This document shows positions 16,285 through 64,000 of a stretch of DNA of 64,000 nucleotides, piece by piece. Source of the DNA: Vibrio sp. GTDB taxonomy: Bacteria > Pseudomonadota > Gammaproteobacteria > Enterobacterales > Vibrionaceae. The position numbers and the translations under genes are program-made. The notes under the pieces were generated by a model, which searched no databases, was not told where the DNA came from, and worked only from the letters and a program-made list of their open reading frames with translations. The number at the start of each line of letters is the position of its first letter. Position 1 is the first letter of the stretch. The DNA is taken from contig JAOICL010000005.1 of NCBI GenBank assembly GCA_028131545.1, forward strand, positions 1 to 64,000. The letters run 5' to 3'.

Positions 16285-18507
16285 ATGTTTAAGAAAACAT
16301 CGATTGCAGCATCAATTATGATGCTTTTTCCTACGTTAGCGATGGCTGCTGATGAATGGCAACCAAAGAGTTATTCAGGAGGGAACCAAGTTTGTTATAA
16401 TGGTGAGCTATATCAAGCCAAATGGTGGGCTGGTAGTAGAAGCATACCCAACCCTAATGGCGCGACATCACCATCACAAAGTGGTTGGGGAAGTAATCCA
16501 TGGTTACCGTTAGGTTCTTCAGCACAATGTACAGGAGGAGAACCAGAGCCGGAACCAGAACCAGAGCCGGAACCAGATAATGAAGCACCTCAAGCTGACG
16601 CTGGTCCAAACATCACCTTACAAGAGGCTGAAACACACTTTGTTCTTAATGGCTCAAGATCCTATGACGCAGATAATGATGAATTAACGTATCAATGGGA
16701 ATCATTAACAACAGGCGCTCAAATCACTTCTTCTTCAGGGATTAACGCCTCCATATCCATTACCAATTACCAATATTTAACGGAATACCGATTTAGGTTG
16801 ACGGTGTCAGATGGTCAAGCAGAAGATAGGGATATTATCTCTGTATTTACACCGGCTGAAATGATTGTTGTATCAAACAATGCACCGGTAGCTGATGCTG
16901 GACAGTCCATCGCTTTGAATACTCAAGTAGAATCGGGTTGGCTTGATGGAACTCAATCTTTTGATCAAGATGATGATGTATTGACTTATCAATGGGAACA
17001 ACTCTCTGGCCCTGCGGCCGATATCTCAAACCCGACTTATGCGTTAACACGATTTACATTAAACAATTATGAATATGAGACAGATTATGTCTTTAGAATA
17101 ACAGTTAATGACGGAGAGTTGACTTCTTCAGATACTGTCGTTGTATCGACAGCAAAAGAACCGGATGTTATTCCTGATGGTGATATTATTCCGAGAACCG
17201 TCTTTGTACAACCGATAGGCGATGGTGCGACGTTAATTGATCAGCAGTTACGTTTCTGGCGACCAAGTCCAATGACATCGACGGGTTTTTATGTCACCCG
17301 AGGTGAACAAGTCACGATCAATGTTGATTATCAAGGTACAAATGCAGCATCAAATCGAGTGCAAGCGTTTATCACCGTGCCACATAACCGTAAGCATGCT
17401 TTTAGTGGTTCTCAAGCGGTGAACTTAAATCAAGGTAGTAATACGTTTAATATCACCCAAGAGGGTATTTTGTACTATTACATTAATTCTTCAAGTAATA
17501 ACAACAATGTGAAAGTGACTCTTTCTTCCGGTGGACGTGAGTTCCCTCGATTTATATCGGGTGTTCATACTCAATCCGATTGGAATTATATGGTCAGTCA
17601 ATTTACTGATTCGCCTTATATTGAATTGGTAGGCGACAAGATGATGTTAACGGCTAGACGATCTGCCGTACTTCAGGCGTTGGATGGACGCAGTCCAGAT
17701 GTCACATTAGATTTATGGGATAATATAGTCTCGATTGCAGAGGAGCAATACGCCTTAACATCATCAAACCAAAATAGTGTACACCGTGAAATTCCTCATC
17801 GATTCCACTTTGTTGATGGTATTCCACCAGTAGGTGTACAAAATAATGATACGTGTTACGGGGAGTTAAATGCTTGGACATATCGTCTTCAATCTTGTAC
17901 CAATGGTGCGACTCAAAAAATACTCGATCCAGATATTTTAGGTTCAGTGAATGGTTGGGGACCTTGGCATGAGTTAGGCCATCATATGCAGATGACATCA
18001 TTCACACCAAGTTATCTATCAGGTTCGACAGCTGGAGTTGGAGATTTTACGGAAGTTACGGTTAATCTAACGTCGCTATTAGTGAATCAGCGATTAGGTA
18101 TCACTCCTAGATTTGAACGCTGGGGTGATTGGAATAAACATGTTGTGCCTTATCTAAATCAATCGTCAAATAAAAATATTAGTACGGCTAATAATTGGGT
18201 ACAACTGGGCATGTTTTGGCAATTACACTTAACATTTGGAGAAGCGTTTTATCAAGAACTCGCAACCAATGCGCGCAATAATTATCAAGTCATGGGGAGT
18301 ATTTCAAATAGCAATCGTCTTCAAAGCTTTATTGTTGAAGCAAGCAAAGCGAGTGGGTATGATTTAAGACCCTACTTTGATAAATGGGGACTTGTTTCTA
18401 ATTCAAGTACTCATTCAACAATGAATAATCTCAATTTGAAAACATTATCAGATCCTATTTGGGATAATAGGGATACAGATATCCGTTATCGATTATCGAT
18501 ACAATAA
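16285..18507 (+). CDS. Secreted M60-like zinc metallopeptidase with N-terminal CBM5/12 and two PKD-like domains
   Basis: 740 aa; signal peptide; CBM5/12 (EWQPKSYSGGNQVCYNGELYQAKWWAGSRS...WLPLG); PEPEPEPEPEP linker; two PKD-like repeats (ADAGPNITLQ.., ADAGQSIALN..); M60 region with HEXXH (GPWHELGHHMQM). Confidence 0.88.
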   Translation: MFKKTSIAASIMMLFPTLAMAADEWQPKSYSGGNQVCYNGELYQAKWWAGSRSIPNPNGATSPSQSGWGSNPWLPLGSSAQCTGGEPEPEPEPEPEPDNEAPQADAGPNITLQEAETHFVLNGSRSYDADNDELTYQWESLTTGAQITSSSGINASISITNYQYLTEYRFRLTVSDGQAEDRDIISVFTPAEMIVVSNNAPVADAGQSIALNTQVESGWLDGTQSFDQDDDVLTYQWEQLSGPAADISNPTYALTRFTLNNYEYETDYVFRITVNDGELTSSDTVVVSTAKEPDVIPDGDIIPRTVFVQPIGDGATLIDQQLRFWRPSPMTSTGFYVTRGEQVTINVDYQGTNAASNRVQAFITVPHNRKHAFSGSQAVNLNQGSNTFNITQEGILYYYINSSSNNNNVKVTLSSGGREFPRFISGVHTQSDWNYMVSQFTDSPYIELVGDKMMLTARRSAVLQALDGRSPDVTLDLWDNIVSIAEEQYALTSSNQNSVHREIPHRFHFVDGIPPVGVQNNDTCYGELNAWTYRLQSCTNGATQKILDPDILGSVNGWGPWHELGHHMQMTSFTPSYLSGSTAGVGDFTEVTVNLTSLLVNQRLGITPRFERWGDWNKHVVPYLNQSSNKNISTANNWVQLGMFWQLHLTFGEAFYQELATNARNNYQVMGSISNSNRLQSFIVEASKASGYDLRPYFDKWGLVSNSSTHSTMNNLNLKTLSDPIWDNRDTDIRYRLSIQ

Positions 18508-28500: not shown

Positions 28501-31044
28501 TTAAGCCTCCGCTACGCGCTTATCCATGCGCGTAAACACGGTATATGAAAAGAGAAGAATGATTGAGCTTATAAATAGGATCACACCAAAGATGATGATC
28601 GTTTCGTTATAACTGAATGTACTCAGTAAAATCCCCGCTAATATAGGGCCAGTAATATTACCAATACGTTCTGTTAACCTAAAGATCCCAATGATTTTAC
28701 CTCTTTCAATGCCTTGATTACTCATTAGGTCAATGACAAGAGGGATTTGAGGCGAAACGCAGATACCATGTGCGATACCGACAAAAATAACAATTAAGAG
28801 TACGCCAGAAGTTCCATCTAAAAAGTAGACATTTAACATGGCAATAGACGAAATTAAACCACCTAAAACAATGAAGGCAATTTTGTTTTTGAACTTATCA
28901 ACGAGTGCAGCACTTATAGGAGCAATTAAAATAATAGCGAGTCCATAAGTCATGATGACGCGACCAGAAACAGAGCTACTTTCTCCCATATCTTGCAGGT
29001 ACACTGGGCAAATATAGTATAAAAATCCAGTTAAAATAATTTTGGCCGGAATAGCGCTAAACAAAGTGATGAGTGCAAAATATTTGTTTTTTAGTAATAT
29101 TTTAAAATCTTGTAGTTTAACTGGTTGTCCTACCGTCTCACTTTGTTTGCTTTCGAAGAAGGAAGCGATTAATAGTACCCCTAATAAAGCCAGTAACCCC
29201 GATAGTATAAATGTCGGGGCGTAACCGAGTTTGTCTGCAAGAATACCCCCAATAGCAGCACCACAAAGTGAACCTGAGAAAAAGGATGAAAGGAATGTCG
29301 CCATACCTTTTGTACGATTTTTATCGGTAGTTGTATCCGATACATATCCCTGAGCTGAGATGAAGACAATACCGTATCCAACCGCAGTAATTGCTCTGGT
29401 TAATAATAATATTTCTATATTCGTAACAAAGGCAGTGATAGTAAGACCTATTGCGGTAATAATACCACCGGTCATTAGAGAGAAACGACGTCCTACTTTA
29501 TCTGACCAGTAACCAGCAAAAGGTAAAGAAATAGCCCAACACAGCATGAATAAAGAAATCGGCAAACTGGTAATTAAACTTTGTGGAATGATGTTCGACA
29601 TTGAATCAAGATTTGAAACATAATGCGGGAAAAAGGCTAAAGAAGCCGCTTCAGCGAATACTAATAGAAATAGAGGTAATCGAATGAATCGATAATCTTG
29701 ATTATCAAGCAACGTAGTCTTTTTTGACTTAGCTGCACTGCTCACAAGGTTATTGATGTTTTGTGTGAGCGCACTTATTTCATCTTTGGAACGAATTGCC
29801 GCAGTATGCAATCCAACAGTTAAATTATCCTTGGATAACAAACGTTTAATTTGTTGTAATGGGGATAAAATCATATATTGGCATAAAAATAAAATGATTT
29901 CGGTTACTACAAGACATGATGTGATTAAGACCGTAATCATATCCATTAAACTATCTTCAAGAATGTTACCGATGATATTACCATCAGTCGCGATTTTTAA
30001 TTCTATTGCAGAATCTGGAGATAAAACTAATGAACTTGTCTGTTTTAAATCTTCAGTACTGGAACCAGGCGAATACGTATAAATGGAGTCTTTATTTTGA
30101 TTTAAGCTGATGGCTAATAATTCTTCGTGCCTATCGACGTAGAAAGCAAACTCACTCTCTAAGCCATTTAATCGTTCAATCGGTACACCATTATCAACGA
30201 GGCGATCGATCATCGTGGATAGCGCATCACCAATTAAATGGGATTTTTGTTCGAGTTTCGGTTCATATACCTTTGAAAAAGCATGCAGCGATTGATATGA
30301 AGCACCGAAATTGGCCACAATAGTAAGAACTATAGCAAGAGTGATAATGAAGAAAGGGTAATGCTTCGTTCTTATTTTTCTTTTATGCTGAGTTTGTTGA
30401 GCATTAAAAGCCTCTTGAGTTTCTTCAAATATATTAAACACATTCGCGCCATTGGTTTGAAATTGTTCCGAAGCAGAACGGGCGGTATTTATTCGAGTGA
30501 GGATATTATTTAAAAAAAAGCGAAGTATAATAAAGCCAAATAGGGCACAGCCCGTTACCCAAATAGTCGCATACAATATTTGCTTTTCTAATAGAGCTAA
30601 TTGACTTTCGTACAAGGCTTTCGGTGAGTAATGAAGCTGTAATTTACCTTCATTTAAACCAAAAGTATTCGTAATAGGGAGGGAGATCTCTCGATTATCG
30701 GGTTCTATCTCACCGGTTGAAAATAAAACCTGATTATTCATATCCACAACAGATAAGGATGTGATTCCAGAAACAAGCTGAATACGTCTGTCTAATAAAG
30801 ATTGAATGTTATTAATAGAAGCTAAGGGTAAACCGAGGTTTATCGCTTGCTGTATATCATTTTGAGTTTCCTCAACCACAATTTGATAAGTTGAATCACT
30901 GGTTTCAGTGAGTCTCTTTTCAAAATTAAGATAATTGAGGGTCGTATTGAGCCCAATCGAAAAGAGTAAAACAGCTACGATAGCGAGCGATAATTTGGCA
31001 CGTAGTGATAAAGAAACTTTAACTGCTTGTTCTTTTAATTCCAT
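28501..31044 (-). CDS. Sensor-HAMP-MFS transporter fusion
   Basis: 847 aa; TM-periplasmic-TM, second TM-periplasmic-TM, HAMP-like linker (ILSPLQQIKRLLS...RSKDEISALTQNINNLV), then a ~12-TM MFS domain with motif A (GYWSDKVGRRFSLMTG). Confidence 0.8.
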   Translation of the reverse strand: MELKEQAVKVSLSLRAKLSLAIVAVLLFSIGLNTTLNYLNFEKRLTETSDSTYQIVVEETQNDIQQAINLGLPLASINNIQSLLDRRIQLVSGITSLSVVDMNNQVLFSTGEIEPDNREISLPITNTFGLNEGKLQLHYSPKALYESQLALLEKQILYATIWVTGCALFGFIILRFFLNNILTRINTARSASEQFQTNGANVFNIFEETQEAFNAQQTQHKRKIRTKHYPFFIITLAIVLTIVANFGASYQSLHAFSKVYEPKLEQKSHLIGDALSTMIDRLVDNGVPIERLNGLESEFAFYVDRHEELLAISLNQNKDSIYTYSPGSSTEDLKQTSSLVLSPDSAIELKIATDGNIIGNILEDSLMDMITVLITSCLVVTEIILFLCQYMILSPLQQIKRLLSKDNLTVGLHTAAIRSKDEISALTQNINNLVSSAAKSKKTTLLDNQDYRFIRLPLFLLVFAEAASLAFFPHYVSNLDSMSNIIPQSLITSLPISLFMLCWAISLPFAGYWSDKVGRRFSLMTGGIITAIGLTITAFVTNIEILLLTRAITAVGYGIVFISAQGYVSDTTTDKNRTKGMATFLSSFFSGSLCGAAIGGILADKLGYAPTFILSGLLALLGVLLIASFFESKQSETVGQPVKLQDFKILLKNKYFALITLFSAIPAKIILTGFLYYICPVYLQDMGESSSVSGRVIMTYGLAIILIAPISAALVDKFKNKIAFIVLGGLISSIAMLNVYFLDGTSGVLLIVIFVGIAHGICVSPQIPLVIDLMSNQGIERGKIIGIFRLTERIGNITGPILAGILLSTFSYNETIIIFGVILFISSIILLFSYTVFTRMDKRVAEA

Positions 31045-59636: not shown

Positions 59637-62600
59637 ATGTCCAAAGCACTTACTTTCACAGTTTTAGCAACGTCGGTTGCAGCAAGCTTTTCAGTTTCAG
59701 CCGCTGAAGAGTGGCAAGGAAAAAGTTATGGGGGTGGCTCCCAAGTTTGTTATGACAATAATCTTTATGAAGCAAAATGGTGGGCAAGTTCTAGTACCAC
59801 ACCCGATCCCAATGGACCAACCAATGAAAATCAACCCGGTTGGGGTACTCAGCCTTGGCTTTTGATAGAAGGCTCTTCAGAATGTGCTACTGATCCAGAA
59901 CCAGAAAATAACCCACCGATAATTCAAGTCAGTACCCTTTTAAACCTCACATCTCCACTGTCTGATTATCAATTACAAGCAACCGCAACCGATCTTGATA
60001 ACGATACTTTATCCTATGTATGGACAAAAATATCAGGTTCTAACGACGTGAGTATGGCAGGTAGTTCGACCGCATCACCTCGTATTAGCATCCCTTCGTT
60101 GGAAAGTAATCAAACATTTGTGTATCAACTTGAAGTGAGTGATGGCACAGCCACAGTGAGTGAGACGATTACACTGCAGATTCAGGCTGATCCAGAAACG
60201 CTGAACTCGGAGCCGATTGCTAATGTTGTTCAAAGTGTTCTATCCGTTCAATCTCCAAGCAATAATGTTCAATTAGATGCATCAAACTCCTATGACCCTG
60301 ATAGCGACGCTTTATCCTTTATTTGGTCACAAGTATCTGGGCCGACGGTTTCAATTCAAAATCAAACCAGTGCAGTTGCGATGATTAACATCCCTGAGCT
60401 GCAAGAAGATGCTAACTATACATTTAAAGTGGCTGTCAGTGATGGTGAATTAACATCCGAAAAAACGGTCACGGTTCAGGCGACAACAGTCACTGTTAAT
60501 ATCGCACCAGTATTGAGCTGGGAGAAAGCGAAATTGAAATCTGCGGCCGGAAGAGTCGTTTCATTTAATATTTCGGTTGAAGATGAGCAACCGAGTCAAA
60601 TGAAGTACAGATGGAAACAAACAGTAGGGGATTTATCCATCCCGATAGAAAATAATAATGCGTTAGACGCTAAGTTTGATTTACGTGGTGCTAGTGCTGG
60701 TGACTATAAATTCCGTTTAGTTGCGACTGACTCAGAAGGATTAAAAGCGAAAAAAACATTTACGGTGACAGTGAATGATACAGCCATCAGTAATGGTTCA
60801 TTTATTGGTAAAACGTATCGCGAAATGATCACTGATGAATCGGCAGATGAATTTCATTTTACCGTATCCATTAATGATATTGGCCTCGTGTCCCCAGAGG
60901 TGATTGATTGTGTTGTTGAACTCAGTAATGTAACCAATGGCCGACTTGCAGAAGCCTTGGCAGAATGCATAAATACACAGTCGGATCTTATTCAAATTGG
61001 CCAAAAGCAAGAAGATGGTTCACTCCTTGTTGTACGCAGTAATAGTGCGAATAAAATTTGGGCAATGACCAATACAATGAGCGTTGATGTTGAATTTAAA
61101 GAACCTTTAATTGAGCAAGGTTCGGTAACTTTTAGTTATCCACCAACGGCTATTGTGACCGACTGGACAGGAAACTCACGAGAGGTAGATACCTTTGCAG
61201 AGGCCGCTTTAAATGAACATTTTGAAGCTACATTTACAAGCCAATCAGGTGATGTTTTTAGTTTTAATAGTCAAGTTGGTTCTGATTTTTCAGCCAATTT
61301 AAAGCCAGGAACTTATCAGTTATGGATAGAAATGCAAGGTGCTTGGCAAAGTATTAACTCTTTACAAACGATTAATATCATCGATGATCAAATAGAAAAC
61401 ATTGAAGTATTTGTTAAGCCTTCAATTGATACCGATACCTTATCAGCAGTTGGTAATGTGAGTATAGAGCCGATTATCGATGGTATTTTTCAACCTCGTC
61501 AAATGGTGTATGGGGATGGGTATTTATTTGTTGGTGCTTCTGCGATTTTTGATGAATATGGGGACAGAGGCAATAAAGTTTACGCGGTTCCATTTGATCA
61601 CACAACAGGGGAGGTCGGCACCCCGATTATCCTTGCTGATGAACTATTAGAGGGCCATGGTGTTGCTTATCGTAATGGTCATCTGTATTACTCTACAGCC
61701 ATGCACATTATGGTGATAAAAGATGTATTAACTCAGTTATCAACGCCAATACCTGAAATTGTTACTGCGTTACCAGCAGCAGAGGGTAACTTTGAATTAC
61801 TGAGTAATGCACAAAGAAACATTGGTTTATTTTGGCACCAAAAACACACATTAAAATTTAACTCTCAAGATCCGAATGATGCTTCGTTATACGTTTCCAT
61901 TGGTTCTCCTTGTAATGTTTGTATTATTGATGAAGAGCCGGAATACGGAACCATAGTTAAAATTGACGTTGAAACCGGAGAAAGTCATATTGTCGCTAAT
62001 GGTATTCGAAATACCGTTGGTTTTGATTGGGATCCTGAAACCGGTGACATTTGGTTTACGGATAATAATCGTCAAATATCGGATAATACCCCAGTGTATT
62101 ACCCTGGTGAAATAAATAAGATTTTAGCGTCAGATCTTGAACAAAATACGGTACCTCACTTTGGATTCCCATACCTTTCAGGTATTAGTACCAGCGGATT
62201 AACGAAAGAGCAATTTGCCGGAACATCAAGCACATCAGGTGTTAATTATTTACCTGAAGGAGCGATATTCACCGACTTACAAGAAAACGAGATCAACCTA
62301 AGTGATTACCATGCTCCAGAATTCGAACTTGAAGCGGGCTCTGCGGCATTAGGTTTACAGTTTTGGCAGCCTAATACCGAGTCATCAAATCGCTCTATAA
62401 TCTATGCTACGCATGGTCCTGGTGATGGCGACCGTGCGGGTTATGAATTGCGTCAGTTAACTCTGGATTCAGTGGGTTCTCCTATTTTTGATAAGGCATT
62501 AGTCACAGGGTTCAAACAATCGGGTGGTATTGTCGGTAAACCAGTAGAAATGCTGACATTACCCGATAATTCAATGCTTGTATCTGATGACCATGGTAAT

Positions 62601-64000
62601 ACGATTTATCGAGTGTCGTACGATGAACAAGCGGATACAGGTAGTGTTCAATTTTCCATTTCCATGGATGAAGAAAATGCGAATGATCTAGCGGAAATGA
62701 ATTTGGTTCAGCCAAATGGTATTAGCCGTCGATTATATGTTGATGTCAACGAAAGTAACCTAGTACTTGAAGGATTGGCATTGGGTAATTATCAATTGGT
62801 CATTGCTCAATATGGAGAGTTAAATCCATCTCAATCTGTCATTCCTTTCTCGATTACCAACAATGATTCTCCAACGATAGTGTCATGGAGCTATCAAGAC
62901 AATCAAGTTCAAGAAGGCTTTGGGACGATTACGGTGGATGCCCCAGAGAAACCGTCTGGTTCAGGCAGTTACTATACGTTGGTTCTAGAGCCTTCAATTG
63001 AAGGGCCGTTACCGGATTTAGCTGAACAAAGTAATGTGGTTTATGATCCTGTGACCGGTCAGTATACGATTGAATTGGAATGGGGGATAGAGCAAACATT
63101 ATTCTTACCAGCAGGTTCTTATAATGTGTATCCAAGTTATACCGGATCGTCGGTACCGAGTGATAAAATTCAATCGATAACTATCATTGAAGGCGAAAGC
63201 TCACCACAAGAAATTGAGATTGAATACACTGAGTTTGAATCAAACCAAGCTTATTTTAACTATGTATACAATGAATCTTGTGCACAGTGCCATGAATCCC
63301 ATAATGCCCCTTCATTATTCTCTGGCCCGTCGGATACGATGGTGGCTAACTACACATTGAATCAAGACGCAATTCAAGAAAAAGTCGCTCAAATGGATGC
63401 ATTTGGTTGGGCTATTTGCGATGTGAATTGTCAAGAAACAATGGCGACTTATCTAGAGGAACTTTGGGTTAACGATTTGCCATCGATAGATGAGCCGGTT
63501 GGCGATATTAATGCCGATAGAGGATTACGATTATTATCGTCTAGAGAATACGTTAATACTATTCGGGATGTGTTTAATATCAATATTGATTCTTCTCTCT
63601 TACCCGTTGATCGCTTTTCAGGCACTTTTTACAGTAACCCGATTATTGAAGGGCAGATCAACAGTAGTGATATGAGTAAATATGCTGAAGCCGCGATAAC
63701 GATACAAAGTCAATTAGATATCAATGCCGTCAGTAATTGCCCGACGGTGGATCCTAATGCCTTGATACCAAGCTGGGAAAACCGTATCTATGGTACTCAA
63801 GATAAAGGTGTTCAGGTCGTTCATAATGGTATCGTATATGAAAATAATTATTGGACAAATGCAGAGCCAGGGCCATCAACATCGGCACCAACGGGGCAGC
63901 CTTGGATTGAAATTGGTCCAGCGGTTTCAGATCCAAGCCGAAGTCCTGAAGCAGTCGAAGCCTGTTTCTCTACCTGGGTTGCTAATACCGGTGAGAAATT
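59637..64000 (+). CDS. Very large secreted protein (partial, open at right edge): CBM5/12 + PKD-like repeats + sorbosone/glucose-dehydrogenase-like propeller + c-type heme motif + DUF1587-like + second CBM5/12
   Basis: Manual translation from ATG 59637 shows no stop to 64000 (at least 1454 codons). Signal peptide MSKALTFTVLATSVAASFSVSAA; CBM5/12 EWQGKSYGGGSQVCYDNNLYEAKWWASSSTTP...WLLIEG; PKD-like repeats; propeller region (GIFQPRQMVYGDGYLFVGAS..., GIRNTVGFDWDPETGDIWFTDNN); SCAQCHESH; RGLRLLSSREYVNTIRDVFNI; second CBM. Confidence 0.88.
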   Translation, partial: MSKALTFTVLATSVAASFSVSAAEEWQGKSYGGGSQVCYDNNLYEAKWWASSSTTPDPNGPTNENQPGWGTQPWLLIEGSSECATDPEPENNPPIIQVSTLLNLTSPLSDYQLQATATDLDNDTLSYVWTKISGSNDVSMAGSSTASPRISIPSLESNQTFVYQLEVSDGTATVSETITLQIQADPETLNSEPIANVVQSVLSVQSPSNNVQLDASNSYDPDSDALSFIWSQVSGPTVSIQNQTSAVAMINIPELQEDANYTFKVAVSDGELTSEKTVTVQATTVTVNIAPVLSWEKAKLKSAAGRVVSFNISVEDEQPSQMKYRWKQTVGDLSIPIENNNALDAKFDLRGASAGDYKFRLVATDSEGLKAKKTFTVTVNDTAISNGSFIGKTYREMITDESADEFHFTVSINDIGLVSPEVIDCVVELSNVTNGRLAEALAECINTQSDLIQIGQKQEDGSLLVVRSNSANKIWAMTNTMSVDVEFKEPLIEQGSVTFSYPPTAIVTDWTGNSREVDTFAEAALNEHFEATFTSQSGDVFSFNSQVGSDFSANLKPGTYQLWIEMQGAWQSINSLQTINIIDDQIENIEVFVKPSIDTDTLSAVGNVSIEPIIDGIFQPRQMVYGDGYLFVGASAIFDEYGDRGNKVYAVPFDHTTGEVGTPIILADELLEGHGVAYRNGHLYYSTAMHIMVIKDVLTQLSTPIPEIVTALPAAEGNFELLSNAQRNIGLFWHQKHTLKFNSQDPNDASLYVSIGSPCNVCIIDEEPEYGTIVKIDVETGESHIVANGIRNTVGFDWDPETGDIWFTDNNRQISDNTPVYYPGEINKILASDLEQNTVPHFGFPYLSGISTSGLTKEQFAGTSSTSGVNYLPEGAIFTDLQENEINLSDYHAPEFELEAGSAALGLQFWQPNTESSNRSIIYATHGPGDGDRAGYELRQLTLDSVGSPIFDKALVTGFKQSGGIVGKPVEMLTLPDNSMLVSDDHGNTIYRVSYDEQADTGSVQFSISMDEENANDLAEMNLVQPNGISRRLYVDVNESNLVLEGLALGNYQLVIAQYGELNPSQSVIPFSITNNDSPTIVSWSYQDNQVQEGFGTITVDAPEKPSGSGSYYTLVLEPSIEGPLPDLAEQSNVVYDPVTGQYTIELEWGIEQTLFLPAGSYNVYPSYTGSSVPSDKIQSITIIEGESSPQEIEIEYTEFESNQAYFNYVYNESCAQCHESHNAPSLFSGPSDTMVANYTLNQDAIQEKVAQMDAFGWAICDVNCQETMATYLEELWVNDLPSIDEPVGDINADRGLRLLSSREYVNTIRDVFNINIDSSLLPVDRFSGTFYSNPIIEGQINSSDMSKYAEAAITIQSQLDINAVSNCPTVDPNALIPSWENRIYGTQDKGVQVVHNGIVYENNYWTNAEPGPSTSAPTGQPWIEIGPAVSDPSRSPEAVEACFSTWVANTGEK

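Follow-up and report, generated by a model that had tools for sequence, protein, structure and literature searches.

Exported haem proteins that carry carbohydrate-binding modules (CBMs) are a known but poorly understood kind in cellulose degraders, represented by TERTU_3803 of Teredinibacter turnerae and by Cbp2D and Cbp2E of Cellvibrio japonicus. The window analyzed here, a 64,000-nucleotide stretch of Vibrio sp. DNA (GenBank assembly GCA_028131545.1, contig JAOICL010000005.1, positions 1 to 64,000 of the forward strand), ends within a gene for a giant redox protein whose architecture is a chitin-directed variant of this kind. We consider it probable, at roughly 60%, that the product belongs to the Cbp2D/TERTU_3803 family, whose members are exported redox proteins with haem c, and that it is targeted to chitin and acts in oxidative attack on this polymer. 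Two features go beyond the open-access literature: a CBM5/12 nested within the haem-bearing core, and a DUF1552/DUF1501 partner gene that is constant across variants with different CBMs. An earlier note on this DNA had recognized no characterized protein of this architecture; TERTU_3803 is essentially that protein, partly characterized, and Cbp2D is related.

In the accessible portion of its report (PMC10916295), TERTU_3803 has the order CBM10, CBM2, X122, pf08450-X173, X183, X132. The Vibrio protein is likewise exported and runs from CBMs through a GSDH/SMP-30-like propeller and a following domain to X183, a small DUF and a CXXCH-containing X132, but by that published description it differs in having CBM5/12 and PKD domains instead of CBM10/CBM2 and X122. 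The same portion reports no CBM within X132 and mentions no DUF1552 partner. Cbp2D and Cbp2E are also exported, CBM-bearing proteins that contain DUF1587 and the haem domains X183 and X132 (PMC8981238, PMC12542752), but they have CBM2 and a quinone-binding YceI (X158) domain where the propeller stands here. The cbp2D and cbp2E genes are needed for growth on insoluble cellulose (PMC12542752), and both proteins have been detected in the secretome of C. japonicus on chitin (PMC8981238). The planctomycete PSCyt3/PSD proteins share the PSD3, PSD4, PSCyt3 and PSD2 types, a conserved neighbor and occasional CBMs, but in the available text of PMC5615132 they are predicted to be periplasmic or cytoplasmic, have no known role and are not described with an AA12-type propeller or a nested CBM5/12. 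That text, a study of freshwater Verrucomicrobia, also describes CBM-bearing PSCyt genes whose neighbors are conserved but uncharacterized, again without a known function. CcPDH of Coprinopsis cinerea (AA8-AA12-CBM1; PMC6881789) combines a CBM, a propeller dehydrogenase fold and a cytochrome in one chain, but the cytochrome is of type b rather than c, the pyrroloquinoline quinone (PQQ)/Ca2+ site is intact, there is no PSD module, and this fungal protein is not homologous as a whole.

Within the window the frame (59637-63998, +) has no stop codon before the window edge, which truncates the protein at residue 1454. On the source contig (G000:C78, 114,770 bp) the whole gene spans 59637-65141, with the stop codon ending at 65141, and encodes 1834 residues with zero internal stops, so the single unbroken frame that had been claimed is an intact gene. 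It had been reported as absent from the list of open reading frames (ORFs), probably because it runs off the window end and such ORFs are unlisted by default; the absence carries no meaning beyond that. A fusion of separate genes by sequencing or assembly error, raised as a concern at the time, is ruled out because the same domain order repeats across independent genomes, in proteins 40-45% identical over the aligned length. That order is signal peptide, CBM5/12, three PKD domains, a GbpA_2-like module, an AA12-fold propeller, an X183-like cytochrome c and DUF1587/1595/1592/1588/1585. In the whole protein, the three PKD domains, DUF1587, DUF1592 and DUF1588 score over their Pfam cut-offs; DUF1585, DUF1595, GSDH, cytochrome c, GbpA_2 and CBM5/12 fall below theirs.

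The features that define the Cbp2D/TERTU_3803 type are all present: an X183-type haem c domain, a DUF1587 and CXXCH region, a CBM and a signal peptide. The first haem domain is an X183-like cytochrome c (residues ~1195-1281; 63219..63479, +) with a conserved Met and a CDxxxC pair. It matches Pfam PF13442 weakly and the profile of PDB entries 8q1v/8q1w at E about 0.002, with the CXXCH, the Met and two further Cys in common; going by the shared motifs, these entries are presumably the T. turnerae X183 domains. The CXXCH claimed at 63279-63293 is there (CAQCH, residue 1215), and its two Cys and His, together with the Met after it, are invariant in the aligned relatives. Beyond the window lies a second CXXCH (CWGCH, residue 1709), and both motifs are conserved in position among these relatives. 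The protein is predicted to incorporate haem.

The haem domain is followed by PSD3/DUF1587 (63528..63707, +), which scores 31.3 bits, over the cut-off (26.2 bits, 1.1e-5 in the whole protein). The Pfam match to PSD5/DUF1595 is confined to the last 17 positions of that domain, as expected because a CBM5/12 interrupts it. Profile and loop comparison place this module (63741..63962, +) in the PSD5 loop between C1368 and C1443; it matches PDB entry 6z40, the CBM5 of CjLPMO10A, at E=7.2e-9 and is also weakly detected by Pfam. At this point, DUF1595 of relatives from other families has a short loop with a cysteine at either end, as in CGQQDAAC of genome G272. The CBM5/12 lies between these two cysteines in the redox protein and its four close orthologues, and a second Vibrionaceae subfamily has neither the loop cysteines nor the insertion. 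A second CBM5/12 had been claimed at the end of the sequence then visible; the module is real, but it is nested in the DUF1587-1585 region rather than terminal. Its placement inside a domain, and not on a linker, would hold the PSD module at chitin and suggests that the chitin surface is where this module itself acts.

The window takes in only the first bases of what remains of the gene (63963..64000, +); PSD4, PSCyt3 and PSD2 lie outside it. The downstream sequence, which the earlier note had recommended obtaining, encodes PSD4/DUF1592 (residues 1503-1627, 1.9e-26) and PSCyt3/DUF1588 (7.4e-13), which holds the CWGCH, both over cut-off. PSD2/DUF1585 is weak and last in the order PSD3-PSD5-PSD4-PSCyt3-PSD2, with PSD5 and PSD2 both below their cut-offs. 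Position and Pfam labels suggest that X132 corresponds to PSD4-PSCyt3-PSD2. The model of the haem-PSD module reached a moderate predicted local-distance difference test score (pLDDT) of 72.6, and none of the PDB matches in a structure search with it fell below E=0.001; the weak matches were only chitin-binding domains, reflecting the nested CBM. Because the model is only moderate, we claim no new fold.

The gene order continues as in the wider family, with a DUF1552 gene adjacent to the PSD series. This gene (contig 65147-66397) starts 5 bp downstream of the redox gene and encodes a 416-residue protein that has a twin-arginine signal and matches Pfam DUF1552 at E=8.4e-28. A DUF1552 or DUF1501 gene directly follows the redox gene in 23/23 loci examined, some of which were scanned with Pfam and others judged by alignment or similarity of the translated start. 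We presume that both families lie near the alkaline phosphatase/sulfatase fold in Pfam. Export by the twin-arginine translocation (Tat) route suggests that the partner is folded before export, perhaps with a metal. On the Vibrio maritimus BH16 plasmid (L101, NZ_CP090440.1; 2158-14635), tatABC stands upstream of a 2327-residue redox giant that holds GbpA_2, GSDH-like, CBM96, LamG and haem regions and is followed by DUF1501; the plasmid-borne tatABC fits a Tat-exported partner. The partner also adjoins Cbp2D-like genes. In G570 and G582 a CBM2-PKD-YceI or YceI gene is followed by a CBM2-YceI-haem-PSD gene and then by DUF1552, an arrangement equal to a Cbp2E/Cbp2D-like pair plus a third gene. Two loci (L097 and L098) are such operons with DUF1552 as the third gene, which is neither mentioned nor part of the published Cbp2D/E model in the accessible portions of the open-access literature on these proteins.

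Across relatives the targeting module changes, whereas the haem-PSD core and the DUF1552/DUF1501 partner are constant. CBM5/12 is used by the redox protein described here and by G168, and CBM2 by G272, G339, G570 and G582. There are four CBM26 modules in G341 and G580, together with a GSDH domain over cut-off, and three in Pseudoalteromonas sp. Bsw20308. The V. maritimus plasmid protein has CBM96/LamG and a GbpA_2 domain over cut-off (1.2e-10).

Several observations point to chitin as the likely substrate of the Vibrio protein: its two CBM5/12 modules, a GbpA_2-like stretch, a chitinase next to the G168 orthologue, and a lytic polysaccharide monooxygenase (LPMO) with a CBM5/12-like end. The N-terminal CBM5/12 (residues ~26-81; 59712..59879, +) has an AKWW motif, scores 15.8 bits with PF02839, below the cut-off, and weakly matches chitinase domain 2rts by phmmer (E=0.05), so that the predicted similarity to chitin-binding CBM5 is firm for the nested copy and weak for this one. 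It is preceded by a Sec-type signal peptide (~residues 1-22, MSKALTFTVLATSVAASFSVSA; 59637..59702, +) read from the translation, with the cleavage site judged by eye. Three PKD domains follow (residues ~90-380; 59904..60776, +), matching PF22352 (K319L-like) at 8.9e-35 in three stretches and the KIAA0319L PKD structures at 4.5e-9, and then a GbpA domain-2-like module (residues ~389-486; 60801..61094, +), just under the cut-off for PF18416 (E=3.4e-5). The export signal, chitin-binding-type modules and PKD domains described earlier are thus all borne out. The G168 orthologue adjoins a divergently oriented GH18+CBM5/12 chitinase (L036, 13279-16215), and the genome that carries our gene encodes an AA10 LPMO elsewhere, with a C-terminal CBM5/12-like segment recognized by eye. 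An NPP1 (necrosis-inducing-like) protein adjoins the G168 chitinase.

Between the anchoring modules and the first haem domain stands the propeller (residues ~588-1005; 61398..62651, +). An AlphaFold2 model of residues 588-1290, built with 25 relatives, gave a pLDDT of 85.7 for the propeller region, and the top Foldseek matches in the PDB were two AA12 enzymes, 6i1t from Trichoderma reesei (E=2.5e-16) and 6jt5 from C. cinerea, followed by bacterial soluble PQQ sugar dehydrogenases (sGDH/Asd). A dehydrogenase-type propeller had been proposed at residues ~600-1050, and this match provides it; the Pfam GSDH match is weak, covers residues 779-810 and is below cut-off. The model's secondary structure shows a beta-sandwich region after the propeller (residues ~1006-1194; 62652..63218, +), which its place in the domain order would make the counterpart of X173.

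If the propeller were a PQQ-dependent AA12-type dehydrogenase, it would oxidize chito-oligosaccharides, and the two haems would relay the electrons and so drive the AA10 LPMO. In addition to the fold matches and the LPMO in the genome, this idea can draw on a fungal precedent, a cytochrome-AA12-CBM1 pyranose dehydrogenase that drives LPMOs (PMC5960967, accessible portion), and on part of the active site. The reference residues of T. reesei AA12 (TrAA12) are His153 (base), Arg220/Asp221, Ser240 and Asp242 (calcium), His330 and His350 (PMC6881810), with equivalents in CcPDH (PMC6881789). By alignment to TrAA12, the propeller keeps H734, R791 and N792, the catalytic His and Arg/Asx dyad, together with H926 and, near the C-terminal end, K968; Arg57 and the C-terminal Arg of TrAA12 were mapped by motif alone. 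The base His, the Arg-Asn pair and the His350 equivalent are kept in 11/11 fused propellers. However, the calcium ligand Asp242 is replaced by Gln (Q813 here) in 11/11 fused propellers, compared with Asp in 14/15 single-domain relatives, and His330, which contacts the C7 carboxylate of PQQ, is lost (G901 here) in 10/11 but kept in 15/15 single-domain relatives. The 11 fused propellers are mutually related, so these losses may represent one ancestral loss.

The accessible portion of PMC10916295 reports that the TERTU_3803 propeller does not bind PQQ with or without Ca2+ and has no glucose dehydrogenase activity. In 14 genomes, among them those of orthologue carriers, all PqqE matches stayed below cut-off, as they did in the controls, leaving the search without a positive control. 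PQQ synthesis is likely absent from these 14 genomes, although PQQ can also be taken up from outside the cell. Because of the residue losses, the PqqE result and the TERTU_3803 propeller, a working PQQ dehydrogenase as the earlier note had imagined it is unlikely, and the scheme built on it, with haem relay and LPMO, seems to us improbable. The propeller retains the AA12 fold, but catalysis with PQQ/Ca2+ has probably been lost; most likely the domain binds sugars or chain ends, or it works with a different cofactor. The starch-type relatives (L085, L095 and L100) have three or four CBM26 modules, haems, a PSD module, DUF1552 and a bacterial-type GSDH that passes its cut-off and whose His and GHRN motifs look canonical. 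Unlike the fused Vibrionaceae proteins, they may be true PQQ enzymes.

We favor a chitin-targeted Cbp2D/TERTU_3803-type redox protein because of the constant core and partner alongside changing CBMs, the G168 chitinase, the AA10 LPMO, the nested CBM, the AA12 fold and the Cbp2D/E literature. The two CBM5/12 modules, one N-terminal and one nested, together with the PKD spacers and probably the GbpA_2-like module, would hold the protein on chitin outside the cell. The working part would combine the X183-type haem c and the PSD3-PSD5-PSD4-PSCyt3-PSD2 module, which carries the other haem c, with the DUF1552 partner exported by the Tat route. Attack on chitin could then proceed by the system's own oxidation of sugar units or by electron traffic among the chitin surface, an LPMO and an outside acceptor. 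Of the substrate-anchored polysaccharide oxidoreductase proposed earlier, the chitin-binding modules and, judged by the relatives, the polysaccharide-linked redox role stand, and the PQQ dehydrogenase chemistry does not.

The protein might instead serve chiefly as an electron donor or relay for an LPMO and catalyze nothing itself, the propeller and CBMs only positioning the haems. CjX183 alone reduces bacterial LPMOs (PMC8981238), the first haem domain matches X183, and an AA10 enzyme is encoded in the genome, but in the accessible portion of PMC10916295 the TtX183 domains failed to support LPMO activity, and a large PSD module with a dedicated Tat-exported partner exceeds what a relay needs. 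Electron passing to an LPMO, which the earlier note had suggested, is therefore possible yet contested, and a role limited to it is rather unlikely. Extracellular respiration or redox signaling on particles, in which chitin only anchors the protein and an external acceptor receives the electrons from the haems, is a common role of multi-haem outer proteins and was proposed for TERTU_2913/3803 (PMC10916295, same portion). Here it is very doubtful: there are just two haem motifs, far apart in sequence, the stretch examined holds no porin-cytochrome genes, and the targeting modules track digestible polysaccharides. More tentatively than the favored reading, the haem c PSD/PSCyt3 module and the DUF1552/DUF1501 partner could form an undescribed two-protein oxidative polysaccharide enzyme, not just an LPMO helper, whose swappable modules would aim it at chitin, cellulose, starch or algal glycans.

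Several points weigh against an oxidative role on chitin. Close orthologues occur in only 4/199 Vibrionaceae genomes, plus one broken copy; chitin use is general in this family, and the gene must therefore be dispensable for ordinary growth on chitin. CBM5/12 modules can bind cellulose too, the immediate neighbors of the redox gene in its own genome are unrelated to chitin, and we know of no PSD/X132 domain with demonstrated activity. The negative TtX183 result counts here as well.

How bacteria supply electrons to LPMOs, or work beside them, on insoluble polysaccharides is a standing question. Cbp2D/E were recently reported to be indispensable on insoluble cellulose, perhaps not through LPMOs alone, and a chitin version in vibrios extends that question to a second major polysaccharide. 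The DUF1552/DUF1501 partner would be a missing component whose absence might explain the inactivity of isolated TERTU_3803 domains, the nested CBM suggests that contact with the substrate is made by the PSD module, and the redox giant could show how bacteria oxidatively attack tough polysaccharides.

The four close orthologues (G168, G143, G040 and G167) are 46-47% identical to the redox protein; those of G143 and G040 are nearly identical genes flanked by transposase-like ORFs, labeled by eye. Further subfamilies in G020, G188, G065, G143 chromosome 2, G134 and G113 are 27-37% identical over the propeller-haem region. A propeller profile run against 369 gammaproteobacterial genomes found mostly single-domain dehydrogenase-like proteins of ~400 residues, and the haem-PSD profile at E<=1e-20 gave only four matches outside the protein's own genome. 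A whole-protein scan of the genome collection returned just three weak matches, to the CBM region, in Bacillota, and family-wide searches around G272 and G339 found no fused propeller at the strict threshold. The additional copy in G011 (L040, 4722-12361) is broken into several frames with its DUF1552 partner intact (64% identical); adjoining it is a CBM5/12-like, PKD, StcE-sandwich metalloprotease-like protein.

Elsewhere in the window, a CBM5/12-PKD-M60 (enhancin-like) metalloprotease (16285-18507, +) is 37% identical to the redox protein in its N-terminal part, and the two apparently have a common chitin-binding front end. The window also holds a type VI secretion cluster (19336-45661, -) with TssM, VasE/TssK, TssF, the VipB sheath, an ImpA-type protein and VgrG, and within it an 847-residue ORF (28501-31044) with a major-facilitator transporter domain at residues 459-777.

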